Positions 2,019 through 13,755 of a stretch of 32,892 bases of DNA are shown here, piece after piece; within the stretch, counting starts at the first letter, position 1; every line of letters begins with the position of its first letter. A program made the position numbers and the translations under genes. The notes under the pieces were generated by a model, which did not search any database, was not told the origin of the DNA, and saw only the letters and a program-made list of their open reading frames with translations. This stretch comes from Clostridium sp. (lineage in GTDB: Bacteria > Bacillota > Clostridia > Clostridiales > Clostridiaceae). Location of the stretch: positions 1 to 32,892 of the forward strand of contig JAFSER010000015.1 of assembly GCA_017435645.1 (NCBI GenBank). Direction: 5' to 3'.

Positions 2019-2046
2019 TTGACAAATTGTAAACTTTTGGTACAAT
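2019..2046 (+). promoter_or_regulatory. Promoter of the aro leader/operon
   Basis: Consensus -35 TTGACA (2019-2024), 16-nt spacer, extended -10 TGG-TACAAT (2038-2046). Transcription is predicted to start near 2053, about 26 nt before the leader-peptide ATG. This is the best promoter match in the aromatic cluster. It shows that the leader and attenuator are transcribed from a dedicated start rather than only by readthrough. Confidence 0.75.
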
Positions 2047-2078
2047 TAGGTAAGGAATATAATTTTATGGAGGATAAC

Positions 2079-2204
2079 ATGAAGATAATAATTAATAAAT
2101 TAGCAAAATTTTATAGCTTTTTTTATTTTATGTTCTGGGGCTTTTTCTTTAGCGCTAGCTATTTCTCTTACAAAAAAATAATTCCTTCCAAAGTGAGTTT
2201 TTAA
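2079..2204 (+). CDS. Aromatic-rich leader peptide of the aro operon (putative attenuator peptide)
   Basis: A 41-codon ORF with a strong ribosome binding site (GGAGG, 2069-2073) 5 nt before ATG 2079. An in-frame upstream ATG at 2019 falls inside the promoter, so it is not the start. The peptide has 10 Phe, 4 Tyr and 1 Trp. Residues 11-31 (2109-2171) hold 14 aromatic residues in 21, including FFYFMFW and GFFF. It lies between the operon promoter and an intrinsic terminator, and the genes downstream make Phe and Tyr. This composition matches known leader peptides such as enteric PheL. I infer that ribosome stalling on Phe/Tyr(/Trp) codons senses charged tRNA. The alternative is a small membrane protein, since the stretch is hydrophobic, but the position, bias and RNA structure favour a leader. 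Confidence 0.82.
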   Translation: MKIIINKLAKFYSFFYFMFWGFFFSASYFSYKKIIPSKVSF

Positions 2205-2269
2205 TATAAAATTATTTAACTATTAATACATAATTATTACAAGAGAACTCCTTATAGAGTTCTCTTTTT
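2191..2269 (+). promoter_or_regulatory. Transcription attenuator: antiterminator/terminator switch
   Basis: Two mutually exclusive structures can be drawn. The terminator pairs 2241-2250 with 2257-2266. The antiterminator pairs 2191-2202 (AAGTGAGTTTTT) with 2243-2253 (GAGAACTCCTT): 11 pairs, two of them G-U, with U2194 bulged. Segment 2191-2202 ends in the leader stop codon (2202-2204). A ribosome finishing the leader would cover it and permit termination. A ribosome stalled on the aromatic codons ending at 2171 would leave it free to form the antiterminator. A further 5-bp pairing, CTTAC 2167-2171 with GTGAG 2193-2197, could act as a weak pause or protector hairpin. The pairings are seen in the sequence; the mechanism is inferred. 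Confidence 0.75.
2241..2269 (+). terminator. Intrinsic terminator (attenuator) before aroF1
   Basis: A perfect 10-bp stem (AAGAGAACTC 2241-2250 / GAGTTCTCTT 2257-2266) with loop CTTATA runs into TTTTT (2265-2269). It lies 37 nt after the leader stop and 80 nt before the aroF1 ATG. It would therefore stop transcription before the structural genes unless an alternative fold forms. Confidence 0.85.
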
Positions 2270-2348
2270 GGTTATTAGTACTTAATATAATTTTATTAAA
2301 TATATAAGGCAAATAACATTGCCTAAAAATAAAAAGGGGGCTTTTTAT

Positions 2349-3362
2349 ATGGTAATAATTTTAAAACCAAAAACAGATGATTTAGAAATCAAAAAACTAA
2401 CAGAAGAATTAGAAGGTGAGGGAGTAAAGGTTAATCCTGTAATTGGATCGGACCTAATTATTTTAGGTTTAGTTGGAGATACAAGTAAGATTGATCCACT
2501 TAAAATTGAAGCTAAGAATATAGTAGAAAAGGTAATGCATGTTCAAGAGCCATTTAAAAAGGCTAATAAGTTATTTCATCCTGATGATACTATAATTAAT
2601 GTACAAGGAAGAAAAATAGGTGGAAATAAAATAGCTATGATTGCAGGGCCATGCTCTGTAGAGAGTGAAGAGCAAATAACTTTTGTAGCGGAAGAAGTTA
2701 AGAAATTAGGGGCAAGTTTCTTAAGAGGTGGAGCATTTAAACCAAGAACTTCACCATATAGTTTCCAAGGATTAAAGCATGATGGATTAGAACTTTTAAA
2801 AATAGCTAGAGAAAGAACTGGATTACCTATAGTTACAGAGATAATGTCACCATATGATGTTGAAATATTCGAAAGAGATGTAGATGTTATTCAAGTTGGT
2901 GCTAGAAATATGCAAAACTTTGATTTATTAAATGAGTTAGGAAAGTTAAGAAAGCCTATATTATTAAAAAGAGGTTTATCGGCTACTATAGAAGAATGGC
3001 TTATGTCAGCTGAATATATAATGGCTGGAGGTAATGAAGAAGTAATACTTTGTGAAAGAGGAATAAGAACTTTTGAAACATTCACTAGAAACACTCTTGA
3101 TTTAAGTGCAATACCAGCAGTTAAGAAGCTAAGCCATCTACCAGTAATAGTTGACCCAAGTCATGCTACAGGAAAAAGATTTATGATATCTCCTTTAGCT
3201 AAGGCTGCTATAGCAGTAGGAGCAGATGGTTTAATAATAGAAGTTCATAATAACCCAGAAAAGGCTTTATGTGATGGACCACAATCAATAAGACCAAACC
3301 ATTATAGCTCATTAGTAAATGAATTAAAGGCAATTGCAGCTGCAGTTGGAAAAGAATTATAA
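2349..3362 (+). CDS. aroF: 3-deoxy-7-phosphoheptulonate (DAHP) synthase, copy 1
   Basis: First step of the shikimate pathway: PEP plus erythrose-4-phosphate gives DAHP. Residues 1-~66 form the ferredoxin-like regulatory domain known from Thermotoga maritima DAHP synthase, where aromatic amino acids bind. The barrel carries AGPCSVES (metal-ligand C102), LRGGAFKPRTSPYSFQG, KRGLSATIEEW and VDPSHATG. At 337 aa the length is normal for this class. ATG 2349 is chosen because AAAAAGGGGG (2331-2340) precedes it; a TTG at 2319 would lie upstream of that site. It is the first structural gene after the attenuator, and aroB follows 16 nt later. A close paralog lies at 10948-11988. The gene could equally be named aroG; subtype sensitivity cannot be read from sequence. 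Confidence 0.95.
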   Translation: MVIILKPKTDDLEIKKLTEELEGEGVKVNPVIGSDLIILGLVGDTSKIDPLKIEAKNIVEKVMHVQEPFKKANKLFHPDDTIINVQGRKIGGNKIAMIAGPCSVESEEQITFVAEEVKKLGASFLRGGAFKPRTSPYSFQGLKHDGLELLKIARERTGLPIVTEIMSPYDVEIFERDVDVIQVGARNMQNFDLLNELGKLRKPILLKRGLSATIEEWLMSAEYIMAGGNEEVILCERGIRTFETFTRNTLDLSAIPAVKKLSHLPVIVDPSHATGKRFMISPLAKAAIAVGADGLIIEVHNNPEKALCDGPQSIRPNHYSSLVNELKAIAAAVGKEL

Positions 3363-3378
3363 TAAAGTAGGTGTATTA

Positions 3379-4422
3379 ATGAAGTTATCGGTAGTTTTAT
3401 CTCATAGTAAATATGACATAATTATAAAAAAGGGCTTAATAAATAATATAAGTCTAGAAATAGCAGAGGTATTTAAGGGAAAGAAAATATTTATTCTAAC
3501 AGATAAGAATGTTGATAAATATTATGGAGATAGAGTTTTAAAAGATCTAATAAATTATGGATACGATACAAGAAAATTAGTACTTGAGCCAGGTGAGGAA
3601 ACTAAAAGTTTCCTTACCTTGCCAGTAATATATGAGGAACTTTTAAAGTTTAAGCTAACAAGGAGTGATTTAATAATTACTTTAGGTGGTGGAGTAATAG
3701 GAGATTTAGGTGGATTTGTTGCATCAACATACTTAAGAGGAGTTTCATTTATACAAGTACCAACATCATTATTAGCACAGGTAGATAGTAGTGTTGGTGG
3801 TAAGGTTGGAGTAGATTTAGATAAAGGAAAAAATCTAATAGGTAGTTTTTATCAACCTAAAAAGGTATTAATAGATCCAAATGTTTTAGAAACATTAACA
3901 GATAGATTTTTTAATGATGGTATGGCAGAAGTAATAAAATATGGATGTATAAGAGATAAGGATTTCTTTAACAACTTATTATCATATAACGATAAAAAAG
4001 AAGTAATGGAAAATATAGAATATATTATACATACATGTTGCAATATTAAGAGGCAAGTAGTAGAGAACGATGAAAAAGATACAGGTGAAAGAATGATATT
4101 AAATTTTGGTCATACTATTGGTCATGCAATTGAAAAATATTATAATTACAAAAAATATACACATGGAGAAGCTGTTGCTATAGGAATGTATGAAATAACT
4201 AAAATTAGTGAAAAATCTAATGATACAGATTTAGGAACTAGTGATGTAATAAAAGAAATATTATTAAAATATAATCTTCCTTATAAGCTAGATATAGATA
4301 TTAATGAAATAAAAGAAACTATTTCATTAGATAAAAAAAATCTTAATAATACACTGAATTTAATTTATATAAATAAAATAGGTGAAAGTGAAATAGTTAA
4401 AAGAAATATTAATACATTTTAA
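3379..4422 (+). CDS. aroB: 3-dehydroquinate synthase
   Basis: Converts DAHP to 3-dehydroquinate using NAD and a divalent metal in the cytoplasm. It has the NAD-binding LGGGVIGDLGG (about 102-112), PTSLLAQVDSSVGGK (about 128-142), and metal ligands E184 (MAEVIKYG), H245 and probably H262 (NFGHTIGHA; YTHGEAV). At 347 aa it is of usual length. ATG 3379 is chosen because TAGGTG (3367-3372) lies 6 nt upstream. A longer in-frame start at 3334 would lie inside aroF1 without a binding site. The short gap after aroF1 implies co-transcription. Confidence 0.95.
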   Translation: MKLSVVLSHSKYDIIIKKGLINNISLEIAEVFKGKKIFILTDKNVDKYYGDRVLKDLINYGYDTRKLVLEPGEETKSFLTLPVIYEELLKFKLTRSDLIITLGGGVIGDLGGFVASTYLRGVSFIQVPTSLLAQVDSSVGGKVGVDLDKGKNLIGSFYQPKKVLIDPNVLETLTDRFFNDGMAEVIKYGCIRDKDFFNNLLSYNDKKEVMENIEYIIHTCCNIKRQVVENDEKDTGERMILNFGHTIGHAIEKYYNYKKYTHGEAVAIGMYEITKISEKSNDTDLGTSDVIKEILLKYNLPYKLDIDINEIKETISLDKKNLNNTLNLIYINKIGESEIVKRNINTF

Positions 4423-4475: not shown

Positions 4476-5765
4476 ATGAGTAAAATACAAGTTAATAAAT
4501 CTAAGTTAAAAGGGATAGTAAAGATTCCACCATCTAAGAGTATGGCTCATAGAGCAATAATTTGTGCAGCCTTAGGTAGTGGAGTTTCTGTAATAGATAA
4601 TGTGGATTACTCAGATGATATTATTGCAACTATCAATGGAATGACTTCCCTTGGAGCTAATATTGAAAAAAATGAAGATAAGTTAGTTATAACTGGTGTA
4701 TTTAATAAAAATAATAGAAGAGATCCTATTAGGGTTATAGATTGTAACGAATCTGGATCTACATTAAGATTTTTAGTACCAATAGCATTATTATTTGACG
4801 GTATAACTAAGTTTGTAGGTAAAGGGAATTTAGGTAAGAGACCTTTAGATATTTATTATGATATTTTTAAAAAACAAGAAATTAGTTTTAATGCTGCAAG
4901 TAATAAGCTTAATCTTATTGTAAAAGGAAGGTTAAAAAAAGGAGAATTTTATTTACCAGGAAATATAAGTTCTCAATTTATTACAGGATTATTATTTACT
5001 TTACCTCTATTAGATGGAGATTCAAAAATAATAATTACTACAGAATTAGAATCTAAAGGATATATCGATTTAACCTTAGATTGTATTAGAGATTTTGGTG
5101 TTGTTATAGAGAATAATAATTATAATGAATTCATAATTAAGGGAAATCAAAGCTATAACTCAAGAAATTATAGAGTAGAAGGAGATTATTCTCAAGGAGC
5201 ATTTTATCTTTGTGCAGATGCATTAGGTAGTGAAGTTGAAATTATGGATTTAAAAAAGGAATCTCTTCAAGGTGATAAAGAGGTAATAGATATATTAGAA
5301 AGAATGGGCAATAGATTTGCTTTTAAAGAAAATCTAAAATGTATTGTAGATAAGGAGTTAGTAGCTACAGTAATAGATGGCTCACAATGTCCAGATATTA
5401 TTCCTATAATTTCTTTGGTAGCAGCTTTATCTAAAGGTAGAACAGAAATTATTAATGCTGGAAGGCTAAGAATTAAAGAATGTGATAGATTAAAGGCAGT
5501 AGCTACTGAGCTTAATAAGTTAGGTGCTAAAATAGAAGAAAAGGAAGATGGATTAGTAATAGATGGAATTGAAGAGTTAAATGGTGGAGTTGAGGTTTGG
5601 AGCTGGAAGGATCATAGAATTGCAATGACTTTAGCTATAGCAGCTACTAGATGTAAAGAGCCTATAATTATCAAAGATTATGAGTGTGTAGCAAAATCTT
5701 ATCCAAGATTTTTTGAAGATTATAAAAGGCTAGGAGGAGATATAAATGAGCGGGATTTTTGGTAA
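4476..5765 (+). CDS. aroA: 3-phosphoshikimate 1-carboxyvinyltransferase (EPSP synthase)
   Basis: Transfers enolpyruvyl from PEP to shikimate-3-phosphate. The N-terminal PPSKSMAHRA (K21, R26), NESGSTLRFLVP (91-102), GDYSQGAF, RIKECDRLKA and C-terminal DHRIAMTLAIA are all recognisable substrate-binding motifs. At 429 aa it is full length. The ribosome binding site AAGGGGAC precedes ATG 4476. The 3' end overlaps aroC by 20 nt, which indicates translational coupling. It sits two steps before the branch point, between aroB and aroC, as expected for a pathway operon. Confidence 0.95.
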   Translation: MSKIQVNKSKLKGIVKIPPSKSMAHRAIICAALGSGVSVIDNVDYSDDIIATINGMTSLGANIEKNEDKLVITGVFNKNNRRDPIRVIDCNESGSTLRFLVPIALLFDGITKFVGKGNLGKRPLDIYYDIFKKQEISFNAASNKLNLIVKGRLKKGEFYLPGNISSQFITGLLFTLPLLDGDSKIIITTELESKGYIDLTLDCIRDFGVVIENNNYNEFIIKGNQSYNSRNYRVEGDYSQGAFYLCADALGSEVEIMDLKKESLQGDKEVIDILERMGNRFAFKENLKCIVDKELVATVIDGSQCPDIIPIISLVAALSKGRTEIINAGRLRIKECDRLKAVATELNKLGAKIEEKEDGLVIDGIEELNGGVEVWSWKDHRIAMTLAIAATRCKEPIIIKDYECVAKSYPRFFEDYKRLGGDINERDFW

Positions 5766-6828
5766 TAATATAAAGGTTTCTATATTTGGAGAATCTCATG
5801 GAAATGGGATAGGAATAACAATAAATGGGCTACCATCAGGATTTGAAATAGATATGGATAAAGTTCTTCAAGAAATGGAAAGAAGAGCACCAGGTAAAAA
5901 TAAATTATCCACTGCAAGAAAGGAATCAGATTTACCTGAAATATTAAGTGGATATTTTGAAGGAAAAACTACAGGTACTCCATTTTGTGCAATAATAAGA
6001 AATAGCGATACTAGATCAAAAGATTATTCAAAAACTAAGGATTTTATGAGACCAGGGCATGCAGATTACACTGGCTATGAAAGATATTCAGGCTTTAATG
6101 ATTACAGAGGAGGAGGACATTTCTCTGGAAGAATAACAGCTCCTTTAGTCTTTGCAGGAGCTTTATGTAAACAAATATTAGAGAAAAAAGGAATATTTAT
6201 AGGAGCTCATATATTGTCAGTTAAAGATGTATATGATAAGAATTTTGATGAATTAGATATTTCTATTGATGAATTAATGAACATAAAAAATAAGGAGCTA
6301 CCTTTAATAGATATTACTTTAAAGGATAAGATAGAGAATACTATTATGCAAGCTAAGTATAATGGAGATTCAGTAGGTGGAACTATAGAATGTGCAGTAG
6401 TTGGAATTAAGCCAGGAGTAGGAAATCCATTTTTTGATTCAGTAGAATCTATATTAGCTCATTTAATGTTCTCTATACCAGCTGTAAAGGGTATTGAATT
6501 TGGAAAAGGCTTTGATATAACTAAGCTCTATGGCTCAGAAACTAATGATGAATTTTTTTATAATGAAGATAAAATAATGACTAAATCAAACAATAATGGA
6601 GGAATACTAGGTGGAATTACGAATGGTATGCCAATATTATTTAAAGTGGCTATAAAGCCAACGGCATCAATAATTAAAGAACAAAATACAGTAGATATTA
6701 AAAATAAAAAGAACGTTAAATTTAGAATACAAGGAAGGCATGATCCTTGTATTGTTCAAAGAGCAGTTCCTGTAGTAGAAGCTGTTACAGCAATAGGTAT
6801 ACTTGATTTAATAAAGGAGAGATACTAA
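5746..6828 (+). CDS. aroC: Chorismate synthase
   Basis: Makes chorismate from EPSP by 1,4-elimination of phosphate with reduced FMN. The N-terminal FGESHGNGIG, the RRAPGKNKLST loop, RPGHADYTG, YRGGGHFSGR and the C-terminal GRHDPCIVQRAVPVVEAV are the family signatures. At 360 aa it has normal length. The start overlaps the aroA end by 20 nt, with GGAGGAG directly upstream. The stop codon overlaps the pheA start (TAATG at 6826-6830). Both overlaps suggest stoichiometric, coupled expression. Confidence 0.95.
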   Translation: MSGIFGNNIKVSIFGESHGNGIGITINGLPSGFEIDMDKVLQEMERRAPGKNKLSTARKESDLPEILSGYFEGKTTGTPFCAIIRNSDTRSKDYSKTKDFMRPGHADYTGYERYSGFNDYRGGGHFSGRITAPLVFAGALCKQILEKKGIFIGAHILSVKDVYDKNFDELDISIDELMNIKNKELPLIDITLKDKIENTIMQAKYNGDSVGGTIECAVVGIKPGVGNPFFDSVESILAHLMFSIPAVKGIEFGKGFDITKLYGSETNDEFFYNEDKIMTKSNNNGGILGGITNGMPILFKVAIKPTASIIKEQNTVDIKNKKNVKFRIQGRHDPCIVQRAVPVVEAVTAIGILDLIKERY

Positions 6829-7949
6829 TGGGTGATCTTGAAGGCTATAGAAAAGAAATTGATTCTATAGACAGAGAATTGATAAGATTATTTGAAAAAA
6901 GAATGAATGTTGCAATAAAGGTTGGAGAGTATAAAAAAGAGAGAGATTTACCAATATTTAATGCAAAAAGAGAAGAGGAGGTAATAGAAAAAAATATTAA
7001 CCTTCTTAATAATAAGGAATATAGTAAAATAACTAAGGATTTCTTTGAAAACATTATGGAATTAAGTAGGGAACTACAGTGGAATTTAATTCATGAGGAT
7101 AAAGAAAAAAACATAGAGAATATTATACAAGATAAGGTTAAAATTGGATATCAAGGGGTAGAGGGATCTTTCAGTGAAGAGGCTTTAAGAAAATATTTTA
7201 ACTCTTATGATAGTATTCAAAATTATGAAGAGTTTAAGGATGTTTTTATAGCATTAGAAAAAAATGAAATTCAGTATGCTATTCTTCCAATAGAGAATTC
7301 ATATACTGGTGCTATAACAGATGTTTATGATCTTTTAGTAAAATATAATTTTTATATAGTTGGAGAAGAATGTATTAAGATAGATCAGCATCTTATGGGG
7401 ATTAAAAACTCTAATATAGATGAAATCAAGGAAATATATTCTCATCCACAAGGATTTGCTCAAAGTAAAGGATTTTTAAGTAGATATCAAGATGTTAAAT
7501 TAATTCCTTATCATAATACTGCAATTAGTGCTAAGTTAGTATCAGAACTACAAGATAATAAAAAAGCAGCAATTGGAAGTAAAAGAGCAGCTAATATATA
7601 TGGACTTAGTATTTTAAAAGAAAATATAAATGATAAAGAAGATAACCATACTAAATTTATTATTATAGGAAAAGATTTGAAGTATGATAAGGACTCTAAT
7701 AAGGTTAGTGTAGTATTTTCATTAGAAGATAAAGTAGGAACTTTATATAAGTTATTAAGACATTTTGCAGAAAATGATATAAATATGATTAAAATAGAGT
7801 CTAGACCTAATAAACATGAATCTTGGCAGTATTTATTGTATGTTGATTTTGAAGGAAATCTTGATAGTTCATCAGTAAAAATAGCTTTAGATTTAATAGA
7901 TAAAAATAGTCATTATTTTAAAATTATAGGCAATTATAAAATGGTATAA
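6828..7949 (+). CDS. pheA: Bifunctional chorismate mutase / prephenate dehydratase (P-protein)
   Basis: Directs chorismate to phenylpyruvate. Residues 1-~90 are an AroQ-type chorismate mutase helical domain (RKEIDSIDRELIRLFEKRM). Residues ~104-280 are prephenate dehydratase (GYQGVEGSFSEEA, PIENSYTGAI 154-163, SHPQ). Residues ~293-373 are an ACT domain with the Phe-binding ESRP (324-327). The usual dehydratase TRF motif reads TKF (275-277), a conservative change. At 373 aa it is full length. The start codon overlaps the aroC stop. A terminator at 8004-8042 ends the transcription unit that starts at the attenuator. The Phe branch enzyme is thus the last gene under a Phe-rich leader. Confidence 0.95.
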   Translation: MGDLEGYRKEIDSIDRELIRLFEKRMNVAIKVGEYKKERDLPIFNAKREEEVIEKNINLLNNKEYSKITKDFFENIMELSRELQWNLIHEDKEKNIENIIQDKVKIGYQGVEGSFSEEALRKYFNSYDSIQNYEEFKDVFIALEKNEIQYAILPIENSYTGAITDVYDLLVKYNFYIVGEECIKIDQHLMGIKNSNIDEIKEIYSHPQGFAQSKGFLSRYQDVKLIPYHNTAISAKLVSELQDNKKAAIGSKRAANIYGLSILKENINDKEDNHTKFIIIGKDLKYDKDSNKVSVVFSLEDKVGTLYKLLRHFAENDINMIKIESRPNKHESWQYLLYVDFEGNLDSSSVKIALDLIDKNSHYFKIIGNYKMV

Positions 7950-10947: not shown

Positions 10948-11988
10948 ATGAATAAAGGCAACAGGATAATGAGGATGATTATCGTAATGAATCCAAAATG
11001 TAGTGAAAATGAAGTATTGAAGGTTAGGAAAGAATTAGAGAGTAAGGGATTGAATATCCATTTATCTCAAGGGGAAACTTTTTGTATCATAGGTGCAGTT
11101 GGTGATACTATATCTATTGATTCAAATAAGCTTTTAAGGTTTGCTGGTGTAGATAGAATTCTTAAGGTTGAGGAACCTTATAAGAAGGCAAATAGATTAT
11201 TTAAGCCAGAAGACACAGTAATTGATGTAAAGGGTAGTTTAATAGGAGGAAATAACTTAGCAGTTATGGCTGGTCCTTGTTCTGTTGAAAGTGAGGAACA
11301 GATAATTGAAATAGCTAAGAGTGTAAAGGAGTCAGGTGCTACTTTCTTAAGAGGAGGGGCATTTAAGCCTAGAACTTCTCCATATAGTTTCCAAGGCTTA
11401 GAATTAGAAGGATTAGAACTTCTAAAAAAAGCAAGGGAAGCAACTGGATTACCAATAGTAACGGAAATAATGTCAACTGATTATATAGATGTTTTTGAAA
11501 GAGATGTTGATGTAATTCAAGTTGGAGCTAGAAATATGCAAAACTTTGATTTATTAAAGCAATTAGGTAAGACTACAAAGCCTATATTATTAAAGAGAGG
11601 TTTATCAGCGACAATTGAAGAGTGGCTTATGTCAGCAGAATATATTATGGCAGCTGGAAATGAAAATGTAATTCTTTGTGAAAGAGGTATAAGAACTTTT
11701 GAAACTTATACAAGAAATACATTAGATTTAAGTGCTATTCCAGTAGTGAAGAAAAAATCACATCTACCAGTAATAGTAGATCCAAGTCATGCAGCTGGAT
11801 ATTGGTATCTTGTAGAACCATTAGCAAAAGCAGCAGTAAGTGCAGGAGCAGATGGACTTATGATTGAAGTTCATAATAATCCACAATGTGCATTAAGTGA
11901 TGGTCAACAATCTGTAAAACCAGATGCATTTAAGGCTATTATGGATAAGGTTAAGATAATAGCTGAAATGGAAGGAAAAAAACTGTAG
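10948..11988 (+). CDS. aroF: 3-deoxy-7-phosphoheptulonate (DAHP) synthase, copy 2
   Basis: Second entry enzyme of the shikimate pathway, with the same architecture as copy 1: an N-terminal ferredoxin-like domain (about 10-75) and a barrel with AGPCSVES (C111), LRGGAFKPRTSPYSFQG, KRGLSATIEEW and VDPSHAAG. The barrel is nearly the same as copy 1 while the regulatory domain differs much more, as expected if the two respond to different end products. ATG 10948 is chosen with AAGGTGG (10931-10937) upstream, giving 346 aa. In-frame ATGs at 10969 and 10975 remain possible but are less well served. tyrA follows after 64 nt, so this copy probably serves the Tyr branch. Confidence 0.94.
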   Translation: MNKGNRIMRMIIVMNPKCSENEVLKVRKELESKGLNIHLSQGETFCIIGAVGDTISIDSNKLLRFAGVDRILKVEEPYKKANRLFKPEDTVIDVKGSLIGGNNLAVMAGPCSVESEEQIIEIAKSVKESGATFLRGGAFKPRTSPYSFQGLELEGLELLKKAREATGLPIVTEIMSTDYIDVFERDVDVIQVGARNMQNFDLLKQLGKTTKPILLKRGLSATIEEWLMSAEYIMAAGNENVILCERGIRTFETYTRNTLDLSAIPVVKKKSHLPVIVDPSHAAGYWYLVEPLAKAAVSAGADGLMIEVHNNPQCALSDGQQSVKPDAFKAIMDKVKIIAEMEGKKL

Positions 11989-12052: not shown

Positions 12053-12886
12053 ATGAGAATTTTGATAGTAGGGCTTGGAGTTATTGGTGGGAGTTATGCT
12101 ATGGCACTTAAAGCATCAGGTTATGAGGATATATATGGAATAGATAATAACTTAGAAACTTTAAGTAAAGCAAAATCTTTAGGAATAATTAAAGAGGGCT
12201 ATATTGATGGAAAAGAAATAATAAAAGAAAGTGATTTAATTATTATTTCATTATATCCAATGTTAGTTAAAGATTTTATAAATAATAATAAAGAGTATTT
12301 TAAAAAAGGGGCTATAGTTACTGATGCAACTGGAATAAAAGGACACTTTATTGATGATATACTGAAAATATTACCAAAAGAAATAGATTTTATTTTTGGT
12401 CATCCAATGGCAGGAAGAGAAAAAAGAGGAATAGATTTTGCTTCAAAGGAAGTATTTAAGGGAGCAAATTATTTAATTACAGTAACTGAGAGAAATAAAA
12501 AAGAAAATATAGAATTATTAGAAAAAATTATTTATGATATGGGATTTAAGAGGATAAAAAAGATAGATCCCGTATATCATGATAAAATGATAGCTTTTAC
12601 AAGTCAGTTACCTCATGTAATTGCGGTTTCTCTTATAAATAGTGATGAAGAAGAAAGAGATACAGGAAGCTTCATTGGAGATAGTTATAGAGATTTAACT
12701 AGAATTGCTAATATAAATGAAGATTTATGGAGTGAGCTTTTCTTTGGGAATAAGGAAAATTTACTAGAGACAATAGATAATTTTATAGTTGAAGTTAATA
12801 ATATAAAAGAGGCTTTAATAAATAATGATGAAGAATCTTTAAAAAAATTATTTATAAAGTCTACTAAGAGAAGAGAAAAGTTATAG
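12053..12886 (+). CDS. tyrA: Prephenate dehydrogenase
   Basis: Oxidative decarboxylation of prephenate to 4-hydroxyphenylpyruvate. The Rossmann GLGVIGGS (7-14), GHPMAG (116-121), H176 and H188 in SQLPHVIA match the TyrA family. At 277 aa it has only the catalytic core. It lacks both a fused chorismate mutase and a C-terminal ACT domain, so feedback by Tyr would have to act elsewhere, perhaps on AroF2. A GGGGG site precedes ATG 12053. The stop codon overlaps the left arm of the terminator at 12885. Confidence 0.94.
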   Translation: MRILIVGLGVIGGSYAMALKASGYEDIYGIDNNLETLSKAKSLGIIKEGYIDGKEIIKESDLIIISLYPMLVKDFINNNKEYFKKGAIVTDATGIKGHFIDDILKILPKEIDFIFGHPMAGREKRGIDFASKEVFKGANYLITVTERNKKENIELLEKIIYDMGFKRIKKIDPVYHDKMIAFTSQLPHVIAVSLINSDEEERDTGSFIGDSYRDLTRIANINEDLWSELFFGNKENLLETIDNFIVEVNNIKEALINNDEESLKKLFIKSTKRREKL

Positions 12887-12910: not shown

Positions 12911-13194
12911 CAATAGATAATAAATATTTTTATTTATTAATATATATTTTTTAAATATTAAGTTTTATATATAAGAATTAATTATCAATAATTAATAATT
13001 AAATTATTGAAATAATAATTAATTATTAATTGATACTATTTTATTATTAAATAGTAGTTTTATAAAATTTAAATTAATATATTAAAAAGCATACTTTAAA
13101 AAAATGTTAAAATTATAATTAGTGTTTAGTGATATAATTAGTGTATTAGCAGTTAAATACTAATATTATATTAAATACTAGGAAGGTGTATAAA
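12911..13194. other. AT-rich gap before the CYTH gene
   Basis: Contains low-complexity A/T with short self-complementary runs (around 12980-13040) and two TATAAT hexamers (13114-13119 and 13133-13138) that could be -10 boxes for the next gene, though no good -35 is paired with either. No ORF or RNA gene is seen. Confidence 0.4.
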
Positions 13195-13755
13195 ATGAAA
13201 GAATTAGAAACAAGAGTAGTTGATATAGATGTTGATAGTGTTAGGAAAATTTTGATTGAACATGGAGGGAAAAAGGTTAAGGAAGAATATCAAATTAATA
13301 ATATTTATGATTTTGATGATAATAGATTACTTAATAGTAAGGGATATGCAAGGATTAGGATTACTGATGATAGGCTTAATAATAAGGAAGTTGTATATAT
13401 GACTACTAAGAAAATGTTAAGTCAAGGAACTTTTAAAGAAATGGAGGAAAATGAAACTATTGTTGATGATAAAGAAGCAGCTAGTAGGATTTTTACATCT
13501 TTAGGTTTAACATTAAAACAATCTATAAAAAAATATAGAGAAAGCTATAGACTTATGGATTCTTTGGTAGAAATAGACATTAATGATAAGAGTTTTTGTC
13601 CTTTTCCGTACTTAGAAATTGAAACTTATTCAGAAGGAAAATTAATTGAAATATTAAATATTTTAGGATATACATTAGATGATACAACTTCTAAGACTAT
13701 ATATGAATTATTAGAAGAGAGAGGCTTAGCGAAGGGTGAAGGTAAAGGTTTATAA
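13195..13755 (+). CDS. CYTH-domain (triphosphate tunnel) protein
   Basis: A 186-aa cytosolic protein of the CYTH / class IV adenylate cyclase-like fold. The N-terminal ELETRV resembles the ExExK signature with Arg in place of Lys. Alternating charged strands follow (YARIRI, VYMTTKK, YRESYRL, LVEIDI, PYLEIET), giving the tunnel's Arg/Lys/Glu lining. The family hydrolyses inorganic triphosphate, makes cAMP or acts on thiamine triphosphate; the substrate here is unknown. ATG 13195 is used because GGAAGG (13181-13186) lies 8 nt upstream. The GTG at 13186 overlaps that site. Confidence 0.75.
   Translation: MKELETRVVDIDVDSVRKILIEHGGKKVKEEYQINNIYDFDDNRLLNSKGYARIRITDDRLNNKEVVYMTTKKMLSQGTFKEMEENETIVDDKEAASRIFTSLGLTLKQSIKKYRESYRLMDSLVEIDINDKSFCPFPYLEIETYSEGKLIEILNILGYTLDDTTSKTIYELLEERGLAKGEGKGL

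Follow-up and report, generated by a model that had tools for sequence, protein, structure and literature searches.

Amino acid operons of Gram-positive bacteria are usually ascribed to T-boxes, which sense tRNA charging and control a terminator. The enteric pheL and trpL leaders are ribosome-mediated attenuators with a leader open reading frame (ORF) that includes end-product codons, and in the strict four-segment layout of the trp and his type, segment 2 belongs both to a protector hairpin (1:2) and to the antiterminator. A Leu/Phe leader motif is known from the Lactobacillales.

An emphasis on T-boxes for Gram-positive amino acid operons is also the tenor of PMC2965389, the available portions of which place His leader peptides before Bacillus hisS and hisZ, in place of a T-box, and state that demonstrated leader peptides had until then been confined to Proteobacteria and Actinobacteria, with the exception of ermC. 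The uORFC-13-1 motif is described in the accessible parts of PMC8632094 as an Acholeplasma upstream ORF (uORF) with at least one Phe codon, located upstream of aroF and followed by an intrinsic terminator; a promoter, a ribosome binding site, and a further base-paired part are noted as well. Eight uORF candidates are presented in PMC11109978, none of them named before aroF in the portions available, and a riboswitch before the Enterococcus aroFBC-tyrA operon is proposed in those of PMC4448216. Among open-licence PMC papers, no clostridial aromatic leader peptide was found, the nearest being the Acholeplasma uORF before aroF; this agrees with the earlier note on this DNA, whose author knew of no described clostridial example.

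Here, we analyze a leader ORF and its surroundings in a 32,892-nucleotide stretch of DNA from Clostridium sp. (the window, meaning the whole stretch analyzed). Sequence comparison shows a real and conserved element, which is very probably an attenuator.

A leader ORF between a promoter and a terminator precedes the shikimate operon

The region ahead of the operon and the operon itself contain the following features:
2019..2046, + strand: sigma-A-type promoter, TTGACA-16-TACAAT with TG before the -10, matching the consensus at 11 of 12 positions
2069..2073, + strand: ribosome binding site GGAGG of the leader ORF, from the sequence
2079..2204, + strand: leader ORF of 41 codons, 15 of them aromatic, from the translation, with homologous ORFs in 25 of 31 loci
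2109..2171, + strand: control-codon run, codons 11 to 31, with 14 of 21 aromatic (9 Phe, 4 Tyr, 1 Trp), from the translation
2241..2270, + strand: intrinsic terminator, stem 2241-2266 (10 pairs) and U run to 2270, -13.2 kcal/mol
2349..3362, + strand: aroF (DAHP synthase), first gene past the terminator
3373..4422, + strand: aroB (start approximate)
4476..5765, + strand: aroA
5746..6828, + strand: aroC
6828..7949, + strand: pheA (chorismate mutase/prephenate dehydratase)

This arrangement bears out the earlier note, which had placed a 41-codon ORF with a good ribosome binding site between an extended -10 promoter and an intrinsic terminator, directly upstream of aroF-aroB-aroA-aroC-pheA: the five genes were identified in that order, GGAGG is present, a stem of 10 pairs with a T run follows the ORF, and the promoter has, besides the extended -10, a perfect -35 hexamer (TTGACA) at a spacing of 16 bases. 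The translation, MKIIINKLAKFYSFFYFMFWGFFFSASYFSYKKIIPSKVSF, contains 10 Phe, 4 Tyr, and 1 Trp, which confirms the counts of 15 aromatic codons in the ORF and 14 of 21 in the run. No terminator-like sites are expected by chance (mean of 0.0 in shuffled sequences). Promoter-like sites are at chance level in the stretch (5, versus 4.4 in shuffles), and the weight of the one at 2019-2046 lies in its quality and its recurrence in relatives, not in the site count; as a raw count, 21 of 25 loci have a site matching at least 10 of 12 positions before the leader.

The run is the densest aromatic 21-codon stretch of the whole window in all six frames. One of 30 dinucleotide shuffles of the window also held at least 14 aromatics per 21 codons, namely 15, since DNA this A+T-rich (27.5% G+C) can reach such density by chance. 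The run by itself is only moderately unusual and composition is not decisive; conservation, as judged by the comparisons below, is what settles its significance. The start-picking rule used preferred an in-frame ATG at 2067 (MEDNMKI...), which could serve as an alternative start. The GGAGG and the homologues favor 2079 as the probable start; GGAGG-like sites precede most homologous leaders, whose starts were themselves picked by such sites. The locus thus carries a short upstream ORF with a ribosome binding site that is predicted to be translated. No family was detected for three leaders searched against Pfam and NCBIfam profiles at E values up to 10, nor was there any Rfam match in the window at the gathering score, any meaningful Rfam match in region 1980-2400 at E values up to 10, or any match in a plasmid collection.

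Several further observations concern the genes of the window. Within 20 nucleotides of the aroF start, GGGGGC is found in 21 of 25 leader-bearing loci (here at 2334-2341), and the C that follows these G residues in the ribosome binding site is fixed here and in the homologous loci. A second DAHP synthase gene (10975-11988, 65% identical to the first) is followed by tyrA (12053-12886); no leader ORF of the aroF type lies within 600 nucleotides upstream of it, and no T-box was detected at the Rfam gathering score in the window. A gene for a CYTH-domain protein (13186-13755) lies behind the aromatic gene cluster. The window's own aroK has family scores below the curated cutoffs.

The leader is conserved and accompanies aromatic pathway genes

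A DAHP synthase search of the window's own genome and 59 relatives yielded 31 loci among the best matches, 25 of which have both the leader ORF and the terminator. All 23 same-genus loci with a DAHP synthase at least 74% identical, the window included, keep the aromatic ORF and terminator. At 63 to 67% identity, the leader is present in two of eight loci (L025 and L030, from another family) and missing in six, among them the second DAHP synthase at 10975-11988. The survey of aroF upstream regions proposed in the earlier note therefore upholds its claim, and loss of the aromatic codons from homologous loci, which the note had named as telling against it, was not seen, as the run is kept in the 23 close loci and in 103 distinct leaders. 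The majority peptide of 21 aligned leaders reads MKGII...AKFYSFFYFxFWGFYFSAGYLFCKKxxxSFLMSx, and one natural variant (L020) has lost seven residues (GFYFSAG) in frame while keeping the remainder. In one relative (G002:C51:2269-3280), the first DAHP synthase gene is broken into two segments that lie in different frames, and the upstream leader is kept.

A leader profile (E value of 0.001 or less) matched 142 of 206 genomes of the family, representing 28 of 46 genera and including a few weak matches, with no match in the other 64. Matches were also obtained in 31 of 391 genomes of the class, where 30 of the 31 were inspected (all except G278) and 4 proved false, and in 12 of 398 genomes of the phylum, two of these being the window's own genome and another of the same family. 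At class and phylum scale, the leader is thus sparsely distributed. The four false class matches (L090-L093) and L165 have no aromatic gene, match by chance, and were dropped from the counts that follow. For L161, the contig ends before a downstream gene can be read; it was retained in leader counts, while L168 (a leader with no gene seen) and L169 (no leader by the pattern used) were kept outside the counts. The sets of distinct leaders used below number 100 (for the core frame count) and 103 (which adds close relatives).

Genes behind the leader were read in several sets, which overlap in part through shared genomes. In the 33 named loci, from Clostridium and other clostridial records, four Clostridioides difficile, and Caproiciproducens, the nearest gene identified by blastp always belongs to the aromatic pathway (31 aroF and 2 aroB). 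The leader is present in the C. beijerinckii HUN142 record (L052). Among the 30 class loci, the gene was aroF in 23 and aroB, pheA, and tyrA in one each, the remaining 4 being the chance matches. Of 55 distinct leader ORFs, 53 are followed by an aromatic pathway gene (the exceptions are the contig edge and a chance match), and all 12 phylum matches are followed by aroF; within the family, downstream genes were read only at the fetched loci out of the 142 genomes. In operons without an adjacent aroF, the leader precedes aroB (L046, L055, L066, L120, L166, and L167, of which L055 and L120 are apparently from the same genome). A terminator separates ORF and gene in all 25 nearby leaders, in 26 of 26 loci with an aromatic gene, and in 51 of 53 leaders with such a gene.

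Genus g491 carries up to four leader copies per genome (L148-L158, L119-L122, and L134). These copies precede aroF, a class I DAHP synthase gene, shikimate dehydrogenase, and shikimate kinase-like genes, the last with family scores under the curated cutoffs, and together they look like a dispersed attenuator regulon.

The leader carries a run of codons for end-product amino acids. The densest 21 codons contain a median of 7 Phe and 5 Tyr among the 103 distinct leaders. The earlier note had proposed one sensor for Phe, Tyr, and Trp; the Phe/Tyr part stands, and the Trp part was too strong, as Trp is absent from these 21 codons in 17 of the 103 leaders. Because Tyr occurs in all 103, Phe in 102, and Trp in only 86, the constant signal is Tyr plus Phe, and the leader is probably mainly a Phe/Tyr sensor. 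This is in keeping with pheA in the window operon and with tyrA, which lies behind aroF in many distant loci.

The end of the leader ORF contains a conserved putative antiterminator

An addition to the earlier note is a putative conserved antiterminator, found by comparing relatives:
2191..2202, + strand: antiterminator 5' arm at the end of the ORF, pairing with 2243-2253 (11 pairs and one bulge, -10.2 kcal/mol)
2243..2253, + strand: antiterminator 3' arm, which is the terminator 5' arm

The ORF end carries (C)UAAUGAGU, complementary to the terminator 5' arm and conserved as UAAUGAGU in relatives. RNAalifold proposed this pairing from 25 sequences with no structure supplied, with a small covariation term (-0.61). 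In a 44-sequence alignment, 93.4% of cells are paired between UAAUGAGU and ACUCAUUA, compared to 31 to 62% for slid versions of the pairing. There are six double-change cells, and 1 of 500 shuffled alignments reaches each of the paired share and the double-change count; the three pairs with a double change are matched by 43 of 500 and the number of pair types by 49 of 500. These shuffles ignore the relatedness of the sequences.

Across 100 distinct leaders, the core lies in frame 0 in 43, in frame 1 in 43, and in frame 2 in 1, encoding Leu-Met-Ser and the like in frame 0 and Ser-Asn-Glu and the like in frame 1. Because the core is found in two frames equally often, the ORF end is best read as an RNA element and not a peptide. 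The consensus core is lacking in 13 of the 100 by the pattern used; several of these have variant pairs, such as UCUAAGAG/CUUUUAGA in L110 and CGCAUGAG/CUCAUGUG in L112, and a looser pattern finds the core in 100 of 103 leaders. The best duplex with the terminator arm includes a core-like string in 42 of 44 leaders, and in only 28 of 44 is the duplex matched by at most 2 of 40 shuffled tails. When arms were exchanged among 38 leaders (leaving out those more than 80% identical over 105 nucleotides, without the S-A-G motif, or without a terminator by rule), the leader's own pairing was better in 28 (P = 3e-5). It beat 90% of swaps in only 13 of the 38, which is expected because the core itself is conserved; the window's own antiterminator was matched by 57% of swaps. 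In L020, the antiterminator is intact despite the in-frame loss in the ORF. By sequence and folding, then, the locus has a candidate antiterminator that shares a terminator strand and would be exposed by a stall.

The aromatic run lies within a covarying hairpin

The run is enclosed by a hairpin, termed P1, with three helices:
2103..2171, + strand: hairpin P1 enclosing the run, from folding and covariation
2103-2108/2166-2171, + strand: outer arms of P1, eroded in the window organism
2113-2117/2158-2162, + strand: middle helix of P1, AUAGC/GCUAU
2135-2142/2151-2158, + strand: inner helix of P1, CUGGGGCU/AGCGCUAG

From 25 sequences, RNAalifold proposed the inner hairpin (CUGG.GCU/AGC.CUGG). In the 44-sequence alignment, the 17 pairs of P1 have 93.8% of cells paired and 10 double-change cells (reached by 0 of 500 shuffles); four pairs show a double change (6 of 500 shuffles), and the number of pair types does not exceed chance (187 of 500). 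All cells of the inner helix (100%) are paired, and four of its seven pairs are invariant and thus uninformative. The inner hairpin is found again among 50 distinct distant leaders, usually as UAGCUGG.GCUA/UAGC.CUGGUUA, and substitutions in it preserve pairing; the outer helix differs in sequence among these leaders and is still complementary. In the swap test, a leader's own P1 outer helix was better in 31 of 38 (P = 2e-6). The aromatic run therefore sits in a hairpin supported by covariation in the sequences compared. The window's own copy appears to be a weak one: its outer helix (-0.7 kcal/mol) is no better than any swapped partner, leaving the middle and inner helices, and the single-sequence fold of the leader (z-score of -1.37, with 20 of 200 shuffles folding equally well) is not convincing alone.

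Several wobble bases within the leader are fixed. In 25 leaders, Gly is GGC in 24 of 24, Ala is GCT in 24 of 24, the Phe before the Trp codon is TTC in 22 of 22, and the Ser at column 30 is AGC in 22 of 23. In twelve genes of the window, GGC makes up 6% of Gly codons, AGC 6% of Ser, TTC 10% of Phe, and GCT 47% of Ala. Leader codons are thus fixed against the usage in these genes for GGC and TTC.

A model for attenuation and its alternatives

Comparison among relatives establishes, at the level of sequence, a conserved ORF, its aromatic codons, a terminator, antiterminator complementarity, covariation in P1, and association with aromatic genes. We conclude with high confidence that the locus encodes a ribosome-mediated transcription attenuator of the shikimate/phenylalanine operon. 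In the model that follows, we infer the transcription start, translation, stalling, the response to Phe and Tyr, and the role of P1. RNA polymerase would start at about 2053 and transcribe the leader ORF with a ribosome trailing. With charged tRNA-Phe and tRNA-Tyr plentiful, the ribosome would clear the run and cover 2191-2202 at the ORF end, so that the terminator at 2241-2266 would form and the transcript would end at about 218 nucleotides. When Phe or Tyr is scarce, the ribosome would stall within 2109-2171 and leave 2191-2202 free to pair with 2243-2253 before the terminator 3' arm exists, which would allow read-through into aroF-aroB-aroA-aroC-pheA. P1 would most likely serve for pausing or timing, so that ribosome and polymerase stay coordinated.

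Stalls were simulated assuming a footprint of 9 nucleotides past the A-site codon. With the RNA extending up to the terminator loop, a stall at codon 11, 20, or 31 allowed the antiterminator to fold (2191-2202 with 2243-2253), whereas a ribosome at the stop codon excluded it. Once the terminator 3' arm was included, the terminator appeared in all four folds (-13.2 versus -10.2 kcal/mol for the antiterminator). As the finished terminator is the more stable structure, the switch must be kinetic and decided during transcription, as it likewise is in known attenuators. A median of 24 nucleotides (range of 9 to 45; 100 of 103 leaders) separates the core from the last aromatic codon, which should mostly be enough for the core to stay exposed when a ribosome stalls. 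In 56 of 100 leaders, the stop codon and the core are within 20 nucleotides of each other; elsewhere the stop codon is up to 54 nucleotides away, and there the ribosome must pass over the arm in time and not rest on it. The antiterminator is formed in the predicted ribosome-free fold, and this modeling suggests that read-through would be the default without a ribosome.

Three other explanations were weighed against attenuation. P1 could be the aptamer of a riboswitch for an aromatic amino acid or a shikimate intermediate, with the ORF incidental. The inner sequence of P1 is almost fixed among close leaders, an internal G.G mismatch is present in 43 of 44 of these (the 44th has lost it), and aromatic pathway riboswitch candidates have been published, according to the available parts of PMC11109978 and PMC4448216. 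At class and phylum scale, however, the mismatch is not kept (L111 is fully paired, and L113 and L116 differ), and in L020 the inner loop is deleted in frame while the antiterminator stays intact. Every leader counted retains the ORF with its Phe/Tyr run, and the Rfam searches described above returned nothing that would point to a known aptamer, so that we consider a riboswitch very unlikely.

The two remaining explanations assign the function to the peptide. In nascent-peptide arrest, for which TnaC is the model, a specific peptide sequence would sense the free amino acid and feed the same antiterminator output; conservation of the motif past the aromatic codons, at S, A, and G positions, speaks for it. 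Yet those codons are accounted for by pairing in P1, no residue is invariant at class scale, W is lost in 17 of 103 leaders, and L020 lacks seven residues of the motif, which makes arrest of this kind highly improbable. A small membrane protein whose short gene precedes the terminator by coincidence would explain the hydrophobic aromatic stretch, the basic ends, and the widely kept peptide motif WGFYFSAGY. It would not explain wobble positions fixed as rare codons, a C-terminal end conserved as RNA across different frames, a Leu/Ile/Val content of 7% in the densest 21 codons, or the company of aromatic genes, and we give it almost no credence.

DISCUSSION

The findings indicate that a deeply conserved clostridial operon apparently has its own amino acids sensed through the translating ribosome. 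The same genome contains 12 T-box matches, 11 of them over the cutoff. Of the genes behind ten of these (L096 and L104 were left out of the scan), nine were named by NCBIfam and one was identified as trpP by Pfam; T-boxes precede pheS and the tryptophan transporter gene trpP (L102 and L103, on contigs C4 and C7). The contrast with T-box control drawn in the earlier note thus holds, as no T-box lies in the window and yet 12 are matched in the same genome, which is 79% complete, so that absences in it mean little. One organism would accordingly use two sensors for the same tRNA pool, and the reason for this is directly testable. The leader gene and its short transcript, so far unnoticed, could be annotated in many Clostridium and Clostridioides genomes, and the element may offer a control point for aromatic compound production in solvent-producing clostridia.

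Mechanisms of this type are known. What seems to be undescribed is the family itself, along with its distribution, an antiterminator independent of reading frame, and control codons enclosed in a hairpin. A broader proposal, which we put forward tentatively and hold at somewhat under even chances, is that of an undescribed, phylum-wide family of Phe/Tyr attenuators with control codons in a noncompeting hairpin, an OR gate in which a stall at Phe or Tyr suffices, and a dispersed regulon in one genus. Read-through would be the default in such a family because the control-codon hairpin does not compete with the antiterminator.

How does this leader compare with described systems? T-box RF00230 gave no match upstream of the operon at the Rfam gathering score and none on contig C6, and unlike a T-box, the clostridial leader would sense via the translating ribosome. 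Resembling the Bacillus hisS/hisZ leaders, as given in the available portions of PMC2965389, it represents amino acid leader-peptide attenuation that replaces a T-box in Firmicutes, and it differs from them in amino acid, genes, and taxa. The leucine-rich attenuator peptide of Staphylococcus aureus is likewise a leader peptide in a Gram-positive biosynthetic operon; in the parts of PMC5794164 available, it serves branched-chain amino acids.

With enteric pheL and trpL, the leader has in common a short ORF with end-product codons, a terminator, and an antiterminator sharing the terminator 5' arm, and it departs from them in mixing Phe and Tyr codons and in a P1 that shares no strand with the antiterminator. 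In the 44-sequence alignment, the 3' arm of P1 ends at column 114 and the antiterminator arm occupies columns 143 to 151, so the four-segment layout is not present; other protector hairpins were sought only in single-strand folds of the window. The earlier note's view that the locus copies the logic of PheL/TrpL accordingly survives for the general features of an attenuator and fails for the strict layout. The closest described case is uORFC-13-1, with which the clostridial leader shares a uORF with Phe codons and a terminator upstream of aroF. That motif, in the available parts of PMC8632094, comprises 24 sequences from Acholeplasma and environmental sources only, and Clostridia, an antiterminator, and a Tyr run are not named there; the leader analyzed here belongs to Clostridia and combines a Phe/Tyr run with a putative antiterminator.
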